From the NCBI GenBank assembly GCA_024686195.1, contig JAIBDO010000004.1, forward strand, positions 1-37,932: a stretch of DNA of 37,932 nucleotides, written 5' to 3'. Source of the DNA: Gammaproteobacteria bacterium (GTDB lineage Bacteria; Pseudomonadota; Gammaproteobacteria; GCA-001735895). A program made the position numbers and the translations under genes. The notes under the pieces were generated by a model. It ran no database searches. It had not been told where the DNA came from and saw only the letters and a program-made list of their open reading frames with translations. Shown piece after piece: positions 3,410 through 37,932 of the stretch (within the stretch, counting starts at the first letter, position 1; every line of letters starts with the position of its first letter).

Positions 3410-5371
3410 ATGAATCGATTACTCATTGGTTTTATCTTTATCGTTCTGGGCATCACGATCGGCTATTCCGCGCAATCGCATATCCGCGAGATCCTCGTTA
3501 GCAGCGGGCTTTCAGATGCAAAAAGCATGGATGGCTCAGGCGCGTCGGAAAGAGAGGTTCTTTACTGGGTTGCGCCAATGGACGCGAACTATCAGCGCGA
3601 CCAACCCGGTAAATCGCCCATGGGCATGGACCTGGTGGCCGTCTACGCCGATGAAGCCAGCTCGGAAGCGGGCGTTGTCAAGATTAACCCGACGGTCGTC
3701 AACAATCTAGGTGTGCGCACCAGCAAGGCCACACTGGGCGTACTTAACCGTGATATCGATACCGTTGGCTATATCGGTTTTGACGAAGAGAAGATCTTCC
3801 ACGTGCATACACGTGTCGAGGGCTGGATCGAGCGCCTGCTGGTGAAGACCGAAGGGGAAAAAGTCAAAAAGGGTCAGAAACTTTTCGAGATCTATAGCCC
3901 GGAACTGGTCAACGCGCAGGAGGAGTATCTGTCTGCGCTGAACAGCAAGAATGAATTTTTGGTAAAGGCATCGGAAAAACGACTGCGTCTACTGGGGATC
4001 GGAAAGCAGCAAGTCAGGCGTTTGAAAGAATCTCGCAAAGTCCGCCAACGGATCGATTATTTCGCAGAACACACGGGGTTTTTAGATGTGCTGAATATCC
4101 GCGAAGGCATGTTTGTCAAACCAGCGACTGACATACTCTCGATCGGCCAGCTGGATACTGTCTGGGTTATTGCCGAGGTATTCGAGCAGCAGGCTAGCTG
4201 GATCAGTGCCGGGCAGGACGTCGACATGTCGGTGACAGCCCTTCCCGGACGCAGCTGGAGTGGGAAGGTGGATTACATCTATCCTGTGCTCGATGCCAGC
4301 ACCCGGACTTTAAGGGTCAGAGTGCGTTTCGATAACCCGGATTTCCTGTTAAAGCCTAATATGTATGTGCGCCTGCAGATTCATGCCGCCACCGATCAAC
4401 AAACCATTTACATCCCGCGTGAAGCGCTGATACGCAGCGGCAGGATGGACCGGGTCGTGCTTGCGTTGGGCGAGGGCAAATTCAAATCGGTGGTGGTCAA
4501 CGCCGGAATCGAAAGCGATTCGGATGTCGAAATCCTCGAGGGTCTACAACAAGACGATGTGGTGGTTACTTCCGCGCAGTTCCTGATTGATTCCGAATCC
4601 AGTTTGACCGCTGAATTCGGGCGTATGGAGGACGCCGAAATGGCTATGAGCAAGGATGCAAGCCCCGATGAGGCCTGGGTAGACGGCGAGGTAACTGCGG
4701 TAATGGCTGGCCACAACATGCTGACCGTGCAACACCAGCCGGTCGACAGTTGGGGCTGGCCGGAGATGGTCATGGACTTCACTGTCAACGAGTCCATTGC
4801 GCTCGACGATTTCAAGGCTGGATCGACTATCCGTATGCTTGTGCAAAAGCTGGCATCCGGTGGCCTCGAGGTGGTTGAGATTGAAGCTGCGGATATGAGC
4901 CCAGACATGGACGACACGATGGTGTGGGTAGACGGGGAGGTTACCGCGGTCATGCCGGGTCACAACATGCTGACCATTCAGCATCAGCCGGTAGACGCCT
5001 GGGGCTGGCCGGTGATGACGATGGATTTCAATGTCGACAATGACGTTCCCATCGCGCACATCAAGAACGGTGAAGCGATTCGCTTCCAGGTTAAAAAGCT
5101 GGACAGCGGCGGTATCCGCGTCGTCGCTATCGACGATGACCGGGTTGCCTGGGTTAAAGGCCGGGTAAACCAGGTTAAAACCGATCAGCGCAAGCTCAAC
5201 CTGGATCACCAGCCGGTCGATGCCTGGGACTGGCCGGTGATGACGATGGATTTTCCGCTCGCCGACGCGGTTGATATCAAGCAGTTCAAGGAAGACCAGA
5301 AAGTCCAGGTTCTGGTGATCAAGAAAGAATCCGGTGCCATCGAAATCATCGATGTAAAAAAGGAGATGTAA
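3410..5371 (+). CDS. cusB: Efflux RND transporter periplasmic adaptor (CusB-like) with heavy-metal-binding domain and three C-terminal CusF-like domains
   Basis: 653 aa; YWVAPMDANYQRDQPGKSPMGMDLVAVY heavy-metal-binding motif, HlyD/CusB core, then three repeats of the form (V/A)WVxGxV...HQPVDxWxWPxMxMDF. Confidence 0.88.
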   Translation: MNRLLIGFIFIVLGITIGYSAQSHIREILVSSGLSDAKSMDGSGASEREVLYWVAPMDANYQRDQPGKSPMGMDLVAVYADEASSEAGVVKINPTVVNNLGVRTSKATLGVLNRDIDTVGYIGFDEEKIFHVHTRVEGWIERLLVKTEGEKVKKGQKLFEIYSPELVNAQEEYLSALNSKNEFLVKASEKRLRLLGIGKQQVRRLKESRKVRQRIDYFAEHTGFLDVLNIREGMFVKPATDILSIGQLDTVWVIAEVFEQQASWISAGQDVDMSVTALPGRSWSGKVDYIYPVLDASTRTLRVRVRFDNPDFLLKPNMYVRLQIHAATDQQTIYIPREALIRSGRMDRVVLALGEGKFKSVVVNAGIESDSDVEILEGLQQDDVVVTSAQFLIDSESSLTAEFGRMEDAEMAMSKDASPDEAWVDGEVTAVMAGHNMLTVQHQPVDSWGWPEMVMDFTVNESIALDDFKAGSTIRMLVQKLASGGLEVVEIEAADMSPDMDDTMVWVDGEVTAVMPGHNMLTIQHQPVDAWGWPVMTMDFNVDNDVPIAHIKNGEAIRFQVKKLDSGGIRVVAIDDDRVAWVKGRVNQVKTDQRKLNLDHQPVDAWDWPVMTMDFPLADAVDIKQFKEDQKVQVLVIKKESGAIEIIDVKKEM

Positions 5372-5372
5372 C

Positions 5373-8300
5373 ATGATTGCCGCCATTATTCACTGGTCGA
5401 TACGCAATCGATTCTTCGTCATTTTATCGACCCTGATACTGTTGGGTGCGGGCGTTTACGCCGTCAAACAAACGCCCATCGATGCGATACCGGATTTGTC
5501 CGACGTGCAGGTCATCGTTAAAACCAGCTACCCCGGGCAGGCGCCGCAGGTGGTGGAGGACCAGGTCACCTACCCGTTGACCACCGCCATGCTTTCCGTG
5601 CCCAAGGCGGTCACCGTACGTGGCTTTTCGTTCTTCGGAGATTCCTATGTTTATGTCATTTTCGAGGAAGGCACCGATCTGTACTGGGCTCGCTCGCGGG
5701 TGCTGGAATACCTGAGTCAGGTCTCCGCCTCCCTGCCCGCTGCCGCCAAACCGCAACTCGGACCAGATGCGACCGGCGTCGGTTGGGTGTTCGGTTATGC
5801 GCTGGTCGATCGTAGCGGCAGACACGACATCAGCCAGTTGCGCAGCATGCAGGATTTCTTTCTCAAGTATGAACTGCAGACGGTGCCCGGTGTATCCGAG
5901 ATTGCCACCTTTGGCGGCATGGTCAAACAGTACCAGGTGGTGGTCGACCCTGATCGCCTGCGCGCCTACAACCTGCCGATCAGCGCGATCCAGATGGCCA
6001 TCAAGATGGGTAACCAGGAAGCCGGTGCGTCGGTGATCGAAATGGGAGAAGCCGAATACATGGTGACCGCCAGTGGCTATCTCGACGGCATCGAGAGCCT
6101 GAAACGTATTCCGCTAGGACTCAATCAAAACGGTGTACCGCTGCAACTCAAGGATGTCGCCGATGTCATTACCGGGCCGCAAATCCGCCGTGGTATCGCC
6201 GACCTGAACGGCGAGGGCGAGGTCGTCGGCGCTTATGTCGTCATGCGTTTTGGCGAAAATGCGCAGACCACGATCGACAGCATAAAGGAGAGGCTCCAGT
6301 CGCTGCAGAAAGGGCTTCCTGACGGTGTGGAAATCGTGACCACTTACGATCGTTCCAACCTGATTCAGCAGGCGGTTAAAAACCTGTACGAAAAGTTGCT
6401 GGAAGAGTTTATTGTCGTGGTGCTGATCTGTGCCCTTTTCCTGTTCCATTTTCGCTCTTCGCTGGTCATCATCATCAGCTTACCTATCGGCATCCTGGGT
6501 GCATTCGTGATCATGTATGCGCAGGGTTTGAATGCCAATATCATGTCTCTCGGCGGCATTGCCATCGCCATCGGCGCGATGGTCGATGGTGCTATCGTGA
6601 TGATCGAAAACGTGCACAAGCACATTGAAAGCAAGCCATTGACGCCGGAGAATCGTTGGCAGATTATCGGTGAAGCTTCGGTTGAAGTCGGGCCGCCACT
6701 TTTCTTCTCATTGCTCATCATCACCCTGAGCTTTCTGCCGGTATTCACGCTGGAGGCCCAGGAAGGAAAAATGTTTGCCCCGCTCGCCTATACCAAAACC
6801 TATGCGATGGCGGTTGCCGCCGGGTTGTCGATTACCCTGGTGCCGGTGTTAATGGGGTATTTCGTTCGCGGGAAAATAATTCCGGAGCATAAGAATCCGT
6901 TTAACCGTCTGGTTACCTGGATTTACCTGCCGGTTATTCGGGCAGTGCTGGATGGGCCTAAAACCATGATCCTCATCGCCATGATCGTGCTTGCCATCGG
7001 CCTGTGGCCCGCCACCAAAATCGGCAGTGAATTCATGCCGCCGCTGGACGAGGGCGATTTGATGTACATGCCGACGACCTATCCGGGCATTTCCATCGGC
7101 AAGGCGCGCGAGTTGCTGCAACAAACCGACAAGCTGATCAAGACGGTCCCGGAAGTGAAATCGGTGTTTGGCAAGATCGGCCGAGCCGACTCGGCCACCG
7201 ATCCGGCACCGTTGACGATGATCGAAACGCTGATACAGCTTAAGCCGAAATCGGAATGGCGCCCCGGCGTCACCACCGACTCGTTACGCGCCGAACTCGA
7301 CAGTCTGGTGAAGTTCCCGGGGTTGACCAACGCATGGGTCATGCCGATCAAAACCCGCATCGATATGCTGGCTACCGGAATCAAGACCCCGGTGGGCATC
7401 AAGGTGGCTGGGCCAAAACTGGATGTGATCGAAGCCATCGGCAAGCAGCTTGAACCACTGCTCAAGGACATTCGGGGCACCGCCTCCGTGTATTCCGAGC
7501 GCGTGGCGGGTGGTCGCTACATCAAGGTCGATATCGACCGTAACAAGGCGGCGCGTTATGGGCTCAACATAGCGGACGTACAAAGCGTTATTAAAATGGC
7601 GATAGGCGGAATGAGCGTTGCGCAAACCATCGAGGGACTGGAGCGCTATCCGATCAATATCCGCTATCCGCAGGCCTATCGAGACTCGGTCGAGAAAATA
7701 CGCTTGTTGCCATTGACCACAAAAAACGGTCAGCGCATTGCGCTCTCGGATGTGGCCGATGTGCGCATCGAGGACGGACCACCGGCGATTAAGAGCGAGA
7801 ATGCCCGCCTGAATGGCTGGACGCTGGTCGATATCGCCGATCGTGATCTTGGCTCCTATGTTGAAGAGGCCCAGCGTGTGGTGGCGGATAATCTCGAATT
7901 GCCCGCGGGTTACTCGATTGCCTGGTCGGGTCAGTACGAGTATATGGTGCGTGCCAGGGAACGCCTGTCCGTCGTAGTCCCGTTGACGCTGGCCATTATC
8001 ATGCTGCTGCTGTACATCAACTTTCGTAACGTGGTCGAAGTGCTGATCATCATGGGCACGCTGCCCTTTGCGCTCATCGGTGGCATCTGGCTGATTTATC
8101 TGTTGGGCTACGATATGTCGGTCGCCGTGGGCGTGGGCTTCATCGCCCTGGCCGGGGTGACCGTGGAAATCGGCGTGTTGATGCTGGTGTACCTGAACCT
8201 GGCATTTTCCCGGGTCAAGCTAAAGGCGATGAATGAAAATCGCGAACTGAACCGGGATGAAATACGCAGCGCAGTCGAGGAGGGTGCGGGCCGGCGCGTG

Positions 8301-8525
8301 CGCCCGATCATGATGACCGTTGCGGCTATAGTGGTTGGCCTGATTCCGATCATGTTCGGCGAAGGTACCGGATCGGAAGTCATGCAAAGGATCGCCGGGC
8401 CAATGATTGGCGGCATGATAAGTTCTCTGGTACTGACGTTGCTGGTGATTCCGGCGATTTACTTCCTGTGGAAGTCCAGTACCCGCCTGAAACCCCGTGC
8501 ACCAATATCGAAACAGGAGGCCTGA
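5373..8525 (+). CDS. cusA: Heavy-metal RND efflux permease (CusA/CzcA family)
   Basis: 1050 aa HME-RND permease; PIDAIPDLSDVQVIVKTSYPGQAPQVVEDQVTYPL and PPLDEGDLMYMPTTYPG motifs; APLTMIE and RIDMLATGIK resemble CusA. Confidence 0.92.
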   Translation: MIAAIIHWSIRNRFFVILSTLILLGAGVYAVKQTPIDAIPDLSDVQVIVKTSYPGQAPQVVEDQVTYPLTTAMLSVPKAVTVRGFSFFGDSYVYVIFEEGTDLYWARSRVLEYLSQVSASLPAAAKPQLGPDATGVGWVFGYALVDRSGRHDISQLRSMQDFFLKYELQTVPGVSEIATFGGMVKQYQVVVDPDRLRAYNLPISAIQMAIKMGNQEAGASVIEMGEAEYMVTASGYLDGIESLKRIPLGLNQNGVPLQLKDVADVITGPQIRRGIADLNGEGEVVGAYVVMRFGENAQTTIDSIKERLQSLQKGLPDGVEIVTTYDRSNLIQQAVKNLYEKLLEEFIVVVLICALFLFHFRSSLVIIISLPIGILGAFVIMYAQGLNANIMSLGGIAIAIGAMVDGAIVMIENVHKHIESKPLTPENRWQIIGEASVEVGPPLFFSLLIITLSFLPVFTLEAQEGKMFAPLAYTKTYAMAVAAGLSITLVPVLMGYFVRGKIIPEHKNPFNRLVTWIYLPVIRAVLDGPKTMILIAMIVLAIGLWPATKIGSEFMPPLDEGDLMYMPTTYPGISIGKARELLQQTDKLIKTVPEVKSVFGKIGRADSATDPAPLTMIETLIQLKPKSEWRPGVTTDSLRAELDSLVKFPGLTNAWVMPIKTRIDMLATGIKTPVGIKVAGPKLDVIEAIGKQLEPLLKDIRGTASVYSERVAGGRYIKVDIDRNKAARYGLNIADVQSVIKMAIGGMSVAQTIEGLERYPINIRYPQAYRDSVEKIRLLPLTTKNGQRIALSDVADVRIEDGPPAIKSENARLNGWTLVDIADRDLGSYVEEAQRVVADNLELPAGYSIAWSGQYEYMVRARERLSVVVPLTLAIIMLLLYINFRNVVEVLIIMGTLPFALIGGIWLIYLLGYDMSVAVGVGFIALAGVTVEIGVLMLVYLNLAFSRVKLKAMNENRELNRDEIRSAVEEGAGRRVRPIMMTVAAIVVGLIPIMFGEGTGSEVMQRIAGPMIGGMISSLVLTLLVIPAIYFLWKSSTRLKPRAPISKQEA

Positions 8526-8527
8526 TA

Positions 8528-8836
8528 ATGAAATACTGCAAAGTAGTGGCGATCATGAATGTCACGGACTACAACGTGCTGCATCTGCCCATTCAGCAGA
8601 TGGATGTCCCGGGCGTAACCGTCAGCATGGTTAAAGGGTTTGGCGACTGCGTTAATAACTTCAGCCCTTATGGATTCTCCAACAACATGAAAGTGGAAAT
8701 CTATACCTCCGCAGAACAGGCAGAAGTGATTGCCGTCGAGTTAGCTGCGCTGGGCGATCAATTGACAGAAGGTGGTGGTGTCGTTGCGATCGAACCAGTG
8801 CAGCAGTTGATGAATGTCAGAAAGCTCCAGAATTAG
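8528..8836 (+). CDS. PII-like protein (PII-NG type, associated with heavy-metal efflux)
   Basis: ATG at 8528, 3 nt after the cusA stop, SD AGGAGG inside the cusA end. VPGVTVSMVKGFGD and KVEIYTSAEQAEVIAVELAAL..GGGVVAIEPVQQLMNVR match the PII core pattern; canonical T-loop Tyr region absent. Confidence 0.75.
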   Translation: MKYCKVVAIMNVTDYNVLHLPIQQMDVPGVTVSMVKGFGDCVNNFSPYGFSNNMKVEIYTSAEQAEVIAVELAALGDQLTEGGGVVAIEPVQQLMNVRKLQN

Positions 8837-8864
8837 AGCAAAAGGAGGATAGAGTTACGCTTCT

Positions 8865-8969
8865 ATTCCGGGGGATAATTTCGCGGACAGTATACTTAAC
8901 TCTTTGGCGATAGCTCGACACAGGCTGGCGCTGGGGAATTAATTAAACTGTCCCTCGATTATCTCGATT
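8865..8969. repeat. Palindromic element copy between PII-like gene and cusA scar
   Basis: gcggacagtatacttaac ... aattaattaaactgtccctcgatt. Confidence 0.6.
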
Positions 8970-9140
8970 ATGCAAAGGATCACCGGGTCAATGATCGGCA
9001 GCATGATTAAGCCTCCTGGTATTGACGTTGCTGGTGATACTGGCGATTTACTTCCTGTGGAAATCCTGTATCCGCCTGAAGTCCTGTATAAAATTATCGA
9101 AAACGGAGACATGAAAATGAAATACTTGTCCAAAGTAGTA
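8970..9140 (+). pseudogene. Degenerate second copy of the cusA 3' end plus the start of the downstream gene
   Basis: atgcaaaggatcaccgggtcaatgatcggcagcatgatt...gcgatttacttcctgtggaaatcctgtatccgcctgaa...atgaaatac..aaagtagt aligns nearly end to end with 8382-8547; a 1-nt insertion shifts the cusA frame. Confidence 0.8.
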
Positions 9141-9587
9141 ATCTGCAGTCTGATTTCATCGGCTGCCCTCGCCAGTGGCACCCATAGCGACAGTCACGGC
9201 CATATGAAGTATAGCGTTGGTGAGCCTGGTGGAGGCACGCCCGATCGTGTTATCTCAGTTTCAATGCAGGACAGCATGCGATACGAATTTTCACCAGACC
9301 TGGTTTCACTCAAGGATGGTGAAACCATCGAATTTCTTGTCCGCAACGACGGTAAGCTTCAACACGAGTTTTCAATCGGTAACGCCGAGGATCAGGTCAA
9401 GCATGCGATCATGATGAAAAACATGCCCGACATGAAACACGATGATCCGAATACGGTTTCTCTGGCGCCTGGCGAATCAGCCAGACTTTCCTGGAAATTC
9501 ATGGGTCAGGACTCGGTTGTCTTTGCCTGCAATATTGCTGGTCATTTTGAAGCAGGGATGAAACACAGTCTGGCGATAGGCCACTAA
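9111..9587 (+). CDS. Secreted cupredoxin-domain copper-binding protein
   Basis: MKMKYLSKVVICSLISSAALASG signal peptide; LQHEFSIG...VFACNIAGHFEAGMKHSL gives His, Cys, His, Met type-1 copper ligands. Start moved in from ORF 8970, whose N-terminus is the cusA scar. Confidence 0.8.
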   Translation: MKMKYLSKVVICSLISSAALASGTHSDSHGHMKYSVGEPGGGTPDRVISVSMQDSMRYEFSPDLVSLKDGETIEFLVRNDGKLQHEFSIGNAEDQVKHAIMMKNMPDMKHDDPNTVSLAPGESARLSWKFMGQDSVVFACNIAGHFEAGMKHSLAIGH

Positions 9588-9627
9588 CCAGGCTCCTGGA
9601 GTTCCAGGGGCAGCTTACACAGGGAAT

Positions 9628-9684
9628 ACGGGGTCAGGTCTTTGATTTTGAATTCGGGTTTCAAAGTCAAAGGCCTGACCCCGT
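9628..9684. repeat. 24-bp imperfect inverted repeat (REP-like palindrome)
   Basis: ACGGGGTCAGGTCTTTGATTTTGA (9628-9651) versus TCAAAGTCAAAGGCCTGACCCCGT (9661-9684); 22/24 match, the two exceptions being G-U compatible; 9-nt loop. Confidence 0.85.
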
Positions 9685-9755
9685 TACTCGGGTGCATCAA
9701 CTGCAAGTCTTTAGCGCTGGCAGGCAGGCGATTTGATGCCCTGACAGGCGAGCGA

Positions 9756-10129: not shown

Positions 10130-10236
10130 ATCCTCGAAGGTATAGGGTATTGATTCGCCAGGCTGCGCACAGATTTCCAGTGCAGGAAGTCAGGACTCCA
10201 ATTGACTGCCATTTAGCGGGTATACTATCCCCCGGA
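10130..10236. repeat. Degenerate palindromic element copy upstream of yghU
   Basis: Right end gcgggtatactatcccccgga; inner similarity to the 553-680 copy (ccagtgcaggaagt). Confidence 0.5.
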
Positions 10237-11154: not shown

Positions 11155-11237
11155 AATTCGGGGACAGTATACTGAATTTTCAGGCTTGCACGGCGCCAGC
11201 CCAGCGTCAAGGAGTCAAGTATACTGTCCCCCGAATT
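11155..11237. repeat. Best-preserved palindromic element copy
   Basis: AATTCGGGGACAGTATACT ... AGTATACTGTCCCCCGAATT, near-perfect terminal inverted repeats, 83 bp. Confidence 0.8.
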
Positions 11238-14884: not shown

Positions 14885-15102
14885 GAAGATCCTCCTCATC
14901 GATGGCGGTGGTGTCGCCTGGTTTTGGCGCTGGTATGATTTTTGGGGCTTATTTGATGCGTTTTGTTGTTTTACCCCGGGGTTGATTGTACCGGCAAAGG
15001 CAATTCGACTTGATAGATTGAAGTTATGAGGCAATAACCGGAAGGTATCATTAATTGAGTCGAGTTCTAGCAGACGATCGCTTTCATAAACGTAACCGGG
15101 AA

Positions 15103-15180
15103 TAATTCCGGGAACAGTATACTTGAGCGTTTAAGCTTGCCTTGCGGGCGGCGCGTTTTTAGGCCAGGACTTACCAGTTT
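15103..15180. repeat. Left-half palindromic element (aattccgggaacagtatacttgag)
   Basis: Matches the left end of the family; no clear right end. Confidence 0.45.
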
Positions 15181-36782: not shown

Positions 36783-36844
36783 GTAACCCCGAAGGCGTCT
36801 TTAACTATTGGTCTGATCCTCTCAATCTTCCAGTTGCGTAGATT

Positions 36845-36884
36845 GATACAGGCAAGGTTTACTCTAATAAACCTTGCCTGTATC
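36845..36884. terminator. Perfect 17-bp inverted repeat between convergent genes
   Basis: GATACAGGCAAGGTTTA (36845-36861) / TAAACCTTGCCTGTATC (36868-36884), 6-nt loop. Confidence 0.6.
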
Positions 36885-36908
36885 CATTGGCATTACAGCC
36901 AGCCGTAA

Positions 36909-37485: not shown

Positions 37486-37932
37486 TTAGCTGGGGCTGCG
37501 CAACAGGATTGCCGGACGTAATCGCAAGCGCCGCATGAGATAGTTGGCGCCAAGGCCCAGCGCCAGACTGCTGACGCCGATGGCAACCAGGGCCCCGAGC
37601 CACACCAGGTCCGCCGACGGCAGTTTCAGCCGCCATTGTAGCAACGGCAAGGCGATGGCAGAGCCGAGCAGTATCGCAAACAGCGAAGCCACCAGTGCCA
37701 GTAACAGATACTCCAGTTGCAGGCTTTGCCGGATCAACGCCAGCCTGACGCCGAGGCTGTGCAAAATGGTGGCATCGTAGATTTGGCGGCTGCGTCCGGC
37801 GGCCATCACGCTGATCAGCACCAACAGGCTTGCCAGCAGGCTGACCGCCGATACTACGGCAAGGCCGGCGCCGGCCTTGCCGAGAATCTGCCGGGCCACC
37901 TGCAGCATGGATTCGGTGCGCACGGATATCAC
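37486..37932 (-). CDS. FtsX-type ABC transporter permease C-terminus, truncated by window edge
   Basis: LLASLLVLISVMAAGRSRQIYDATILHSLGVRLALIRQSLQLEYLLLALVASLFAILLGSAIA resembles the YbbP/FtsX C-terminal domain. Confidence 0.8.
   Translation of the reverse strand: MISVRTESMLQVARQILGKAGAGLAVVSAVSLLASLLVLISVMAAGRSRQIYDATILHSLGVRLALIRQSLQLEYLLLALVASLFAILLGSAIALPLLQWRLKLPSADLVWLGALVAIGVSSLALGLGANYLMRRLRLRPAILLRSPS

Follow-up and report, generated by a model that had tools for sequence, protein, structure and literature searches.

Partial duplication of a gene, leaving a pseudogene fragment whose leader is captured by another gene at a microhomology, is a known kind of event. The locus described here, in a window of 37,932 nt (the whole stretch of DNA analysed), resembles such events: a truncated, frame-shifted duplicate lies 5′ of a foreign gene and the join falls in a short shared sequence. 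Unlike leader-capture events generally, the join lies on the start codon, so the copI-like gene behind it would inherit a ready ribosome-binding site.

CopI is the periplasmic green cupredoxin of Rubrivivax gelatinosus, Vibrio cholerae and Pseudomonas aeruginosa (NCBIfam NF047895), for which a type-1.5 cupredoxin copper ligand set, His-Cys-His-Met, has been described (PMC13308877). The product of the window gene shares these ligands (H83, C138, H143 and M148, invariant across eight homologs), a short His-containing N-terminus and a copper-gene neighbourhood. It also has an internal His/Met-rich segment, KHAIMMKNMPDMKHDD (MMxxMPxMxH), in which most Met and His positions are invariant and which compares with KAHAQEMRAMPDMQHAD of CopI (PMC13308877). 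Unlike CopI, the window gene is linked to cusCBA-PII rather than to copA or copAB, and it reached 119 bits against the CopI profile NF047895, under the curated cut-off of 200; we therefore call it CopI-like, not CopI.

PII-NG proteins are encoded beside CzcABC/CusCBA (Sant'Anna et al. 2009, cited in PMC7726332). The window likewise encodes a P-II domain protein (PF00543, above cut-off) in a heavy-metal RND operon, in the order cusC (OEP), cusB with three CusF-like repeats, cusA and the P-II-like gene. The adjacency of cusA and PII is conserved in five relatives, two of the same genus (G018, G028) and three of a sister genus (G032, G034, G035), which gives the gene a PII-NG type context. Unlike PII-NG of Geobacter sulfurreducens, the first gene of its operon, the window P-II gene follows cusA, and its context is presumably copper rather than cobalt. 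The C-terminus of CusB (4676-5253) holds three tandem CusF-like domains; a DNA identity of 81% persists between two of these repeats, which suggests internal duplication.

REPINs are REP doublets that form hairpins (PMC3116915). The window has short, hairpin-forming intergenic inverted pairs of REP type, several per genome and dispersed in it. Unlike REPINs, they are of low copy number in this genome (9 half-sites, counted with up to one mismatch).

Table 1. Features of the cusA-copI region (window coordinates).
Feature	Position	Strand	Evidence
cusA, CusA/CzcA heavy-metal efflux RND transporter, source of the tail	5373..8525	+	TIGR00914 E=0, 1223 bits; ACR_tran
Source copy: last 48 cusA codons, stop, Shine-Dalgarno, PII start ATGAAATAC	8382..8536	+	Alignment, repeat and genome search
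P-II-like gene (PII-NG type context), directly 3′ of cusA	8528..8836	+	PF00543 E=1.4e-6
REPIN-like imperfect inverted repeat GGACAGTATACTTAA...TTAATTAAACTGTCC, between PII and remnant	8885..8954	+	Family in 27/31 genus genomes, often as inverted pairs
Decayed duplicate of cusA 3′ end and cusA/PII leader (pseudogene fragment)	8970..9116	+	Indels and pseudogene-type changes; 81-89% identical to 8382-8527
Junction zone, microhomology (A)ATGAAATAC common to PII and copI starts	9117..9125	+	G006 copI AAATGAAATAT, window PII TAATGAAATAC
copI-like gene (predicted periplasmic cupredoxin), proposed ATG 9117 (MKYLSKVVICSLISSAALASGTHSDSHGH...)	9117..9587	+	NF047895 CopI E=1.8e-34, 119 bits
REPIN-like hairpin, second family, just 3′ of copI	9628..9684	.	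25-nt arms 92% complementary; -48.3 kcal/mol, z -9.0

The original prediction was that 8970-9140 aligns along its length with 8382-8547, at an identity judged by eye to be about three-quarters. The likeness is far above chance: local alignment of 8382-8547 with 8970-9139/9140 scored 183, whereas 1000 dinucleotide-shuffled pairs gave a mean of 17 and a maximum of 31, and the measured identity was slightly higher than the estimate (81% over 170 columns, BLAST). Ungapped blocks within the remnant reach 89% (38 nt, 8970-9007) and 83% (111 nt, 9016-9126). Its left edge is abrupt, at about cusA codon 1003, and from there it takes in the final 48 codons of cusA with the stop, followed by the Shine-Dalgarno and the start codon of PII. 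Similarity does stop within the first cupredoxin codons, as had been claimed, with true cusA/PII homology ending at ATGAAATAC (9117-9125), but the last ~14 nt of the proposed match, to 9139, align only with a 3-nt gap and are the cupredoxin gene's own. No third copy of the cusA tail was found in a search of the whole 2.84-Mb genome; only 8382-8547 and 8970-9139 matched.

The frame-shifting insertion predicted for the copy proved to be two 1-base insertions and one 1-base deletion, all before 9016, a net +1 that shifts the cusA frame. Past these indels the remnant is again open in the cusA frame (LVLTLLVILAIYFLWKSCIRLKSCIKLSKTET, then the retained TGA stop). Differences between the window's own cusA and the remnant fall at codon positions 1/2/3 as 13/6/8, in contrast to 9/4/20 between own cusA and G018 (Fisher p=0.02) and 11/6/23 between own cusA and G028 (p=0.045). 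When polarised by relatives, 18 changes lie on the remnant side, 6 on the own-cusA side and 3 are undecided; 15 of the 21 remnant changes not shown to be ancestral run from G/C to A/T (C>T 8, G>A 4, C>A 3). The remnant combines homology to an intact parent beyond chance with loss of frame and codon-position bias. Because the changes are mostly from C/G to T/A, are not concentrated at third positions and are accompanied by indels, it is a decaying pseudogene fragment and not a second cusA kept functional by selection. Alignment, indels and base changes agree here with the earlier description: the 3′ end of cusA, together with its junction to PII, was duplicated and the copy has decayed. As a candidate structured RNA the remnant was rejected, its fold being no better than shuffles (z -0.38).

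Over the full length of the remnant, poorly conserved tail included, identity is 81-82% to own cusA, 68% to G018, 61% to G028 and 69% to G032. Own cusA is also its nearest row by path (0.23) and identity (82%) in a 7-row tree, in which no fork is strongly supported. Some third positions of the remnant agree with other relatives and not with own cusA; given these and the weak tree placement, the duplication may be old, or derived from a sister copy.

It had been suggested that the first codons of the cupredoxin were captured from the PII gene. We reject this, since identical codons occur in the copI gene of G006, which lies behind copB, begins ATGAAATA..AAAGTAGTA and already carries ATGAAATATGCATTAAAAGTAGTA. 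This start is the same without cusA, and the PII-like first codons are therefore native to copI. The start regions read AAATGAAATATGCATTAAAAGTAGTA in G006 copI against AAATGAAATACTTGTCCAAAGTAGTA in window copI, and for PII TAATGAAATACTGCAAAGTAGT in the window and ATATGAAATATTGTAAAGTAGT in G018. Both PII and copI therefore carried (A)ATGAAATA at their starts independently. The switch from cusA/PII-like to copI-like sequence falls in the microhomology AATGAAATA(C), and the cusA/PII contribution is only the leader with its ribosome-binding site.

The spacing of the join is equal to that of its source: TGA-2nt-ATG and GGAG-8 nt-ATG occur both at the own cusA-PII junction (GGAGGCCTGATAATG) and at the remnant-copI junction (GGAGACATGAAAATG), so copI has taken the place of PII with base precision. 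GGAG at 9105-9108 sits 8 nt before ATG 9117; ATG 9111 follows it by 2 nt. Translation from 9117 yields an N-terminus, MKYLSKVVICSLISSAALASG, that is signal-peptide-like by eye and aligns with homologs, and because of this and the GGAG at 8 nt, 9117 is most likely the copI start. The claim that the automatic ORF beginning at 8970 has a false N-terminus was correct: it opens in pseudogene sequence, has no Shine-Dalgarno there (CTCGATTATG), and the homologs begin at the signal peptide.

Elsewhere in the genus, the closest copI homologs stand behind copB or a cytochrome/DsbC-like gene, and in two copB-linked cases a multicopper oxidase gene precedes and a P-type ATPase gene follows. The nearest by DNA is that of G006 (78.6% identity from 9115 on), with copB preceding it and neither cusA nor PII found nearby. 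The G006 gene (L008:6001-6469) carries a frameshift at about residue 75 that splits it, from pseudogene formation or an assembly error. No cusA was found beside copI in nine genomes (G001, G002, G005, G006, G014, G021, G023, G024, G026), and no cupredoxin followed cusA-PII in the stretches examined of the five relatives that share that pair. A Y1 transposase (IS200-like) gene, a candidate mobiliser of REPIN-like repeats, lies near the copI cluster of G024 (L085:12650-13354). Looking in other bacteria for a cusA directly followed by this cupredoxin gave a divided answer: the order exists in Hahella sp. HN01, G244 and G118, but their leaders are unlike the remnant, which best matches the window's own cusA-PII junction. 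Because cusA directly precedes a copI-like gene in these three, copI joining a cus operon appears to be a recurrent theme, with unrelated leaders.

Both sides of the copI module carry REPIN-like hairpins. The region 8860-8969 folds at -38.2 kcal/mol (z -4.35), and the hairpin at 9628-9684 (GGGGTCAGGTCTTTGA family) has further copies elsewhere in the genome. The genus-wide repeat with the GGACAGTATACTTAA half-site lies at 8885-8954, 559-573, 1422-1436, 11162-11229 and 15098-15124; of the 9 half-sites in the 2.84-Mb genome, 5 fall within this one contig of 38 kb, a pronounced clustering that G005 contig 131 and G021 contig 20 also show. Other palindromic hairpins occur at 36842-36887 and 37847-37891, and a weak direct repeat (72% over 85 bp) links 592-674 with 10152-10234. 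The REPIN-like repeats could have contributed to the rearrangement, or could have inserted only afterwards. No sigma-70-like promoter was found in 8500-9720, where 1.5 were expected in shuffles. The lack of a recognisable promoter between PII and copI fits read-through of copI from the cus operon, without proving it; the REPIN-like hairpin between the two genes could reduce such read-through.

We consider it probable that 8970-9116 derives from this lineage's own cusA, as a partial duplicate of its 3′ end and leader, and that copI was joined to this copy at the start codon via microhomology. The duplicated segment would have comprised the end of cusA and the intergenic leader between cusA and PII, and an independently evolved copI-like gene would have been fused to this leader, precisely at its start codon, via the AATGAAATA(C) that both genes carry naturally. 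copI would then replace PII behind a cusA stop codon and inherit the Shine-Dalgarno GGAG, while the cusA coding part, its coding role lost, would decay as a 5′ leader and copI would now be read through from the cus operon. The fast-evolving tail of the remnant, like its TGA-2nt-ATG spacing, matches the own cusA-PII junction. Recombination at the microhomology is our inferred cause of the join; partial duplication plus such a join, an ordinary mechanism, is most likely. The remnant-copI junction was absent from 57 relatives (query 8960-9130) and from 31 genus genomes (query 8837-9200), where only REP-like matches in the spacer were returned, and no intermediate genome showing the order of events was found among the relatives searched.

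A remainder of a second cusA-linked operon had been the alternative suggestion for the cupredoxin start region. The remnant might accordingly be the end of a complete second cus operon, a tandem duplicate or sister copy with copI in the place of PII, from which a deletion, perhaps via the REPIN-like repeats that flank the module, took away everything as far as codon 1003 of its cusA. Such an origin would accord with the cusA-copI order in Hahella sp. HN01, G244 and G118 and with the third positions that suggest an old split from own cusA. We nevertheless think it rather unlikely, as the window holds no other trace of a second cusC, cusB, cusA or PII, nor PII relics around copI, the genome holds no further cusA tail, and the leader matches own cusA-PII rather than the cusA-copI leaders of other bacteria.

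Two further explanations are very improbable. Were the remnant what is left of a more distant cusA, original to the lineage, that a cusCBA-PII operon gained by horizontal transfer had displaced, its 19% difference from own cusA and its 82% identity to G032 over 96 nt would be accommodated, but over its whole length it is nearer to own cusA than to any relative; these identities and the match to the own cusA-PII junction disfavour displacement. An assembly artefact joining two loci is similarly hard to credit: the fragmented genome counts 268 contigs at 91% completeness and repeats bracket the module, but the two copies differ at 19%, the joints share only ~10-15 nt, and the genome has no other cusA tail that could supply the piece.

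On the partial-duplicate reading, the parts are all of known kinds and the feature, though neat, is an ordinary scar in the genome. The copI start is corrected from 8970 to 9117, and the case cautions that automatic ORF calling can add 49 pseudogene residues to a predicted secreted protein, masking its signal peptide. The locus gives a base-level record of one route into an operon, in which a partial end-plus-leader duplicate is fused at a shared start-codon sequence and the newcomer gene thereby receives a ready ribosome-binding site. More tentatively, and less likely than not, the dead cusA tail may have been kept as a working 5′ leader, the start-to-start microhomology join having put copI under the transcription and ribosome-binding site of a copper efflux operon. 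If that is true, the locus would be a clean example of a foreign gene acquiring operon membership through a duplicated gene end.
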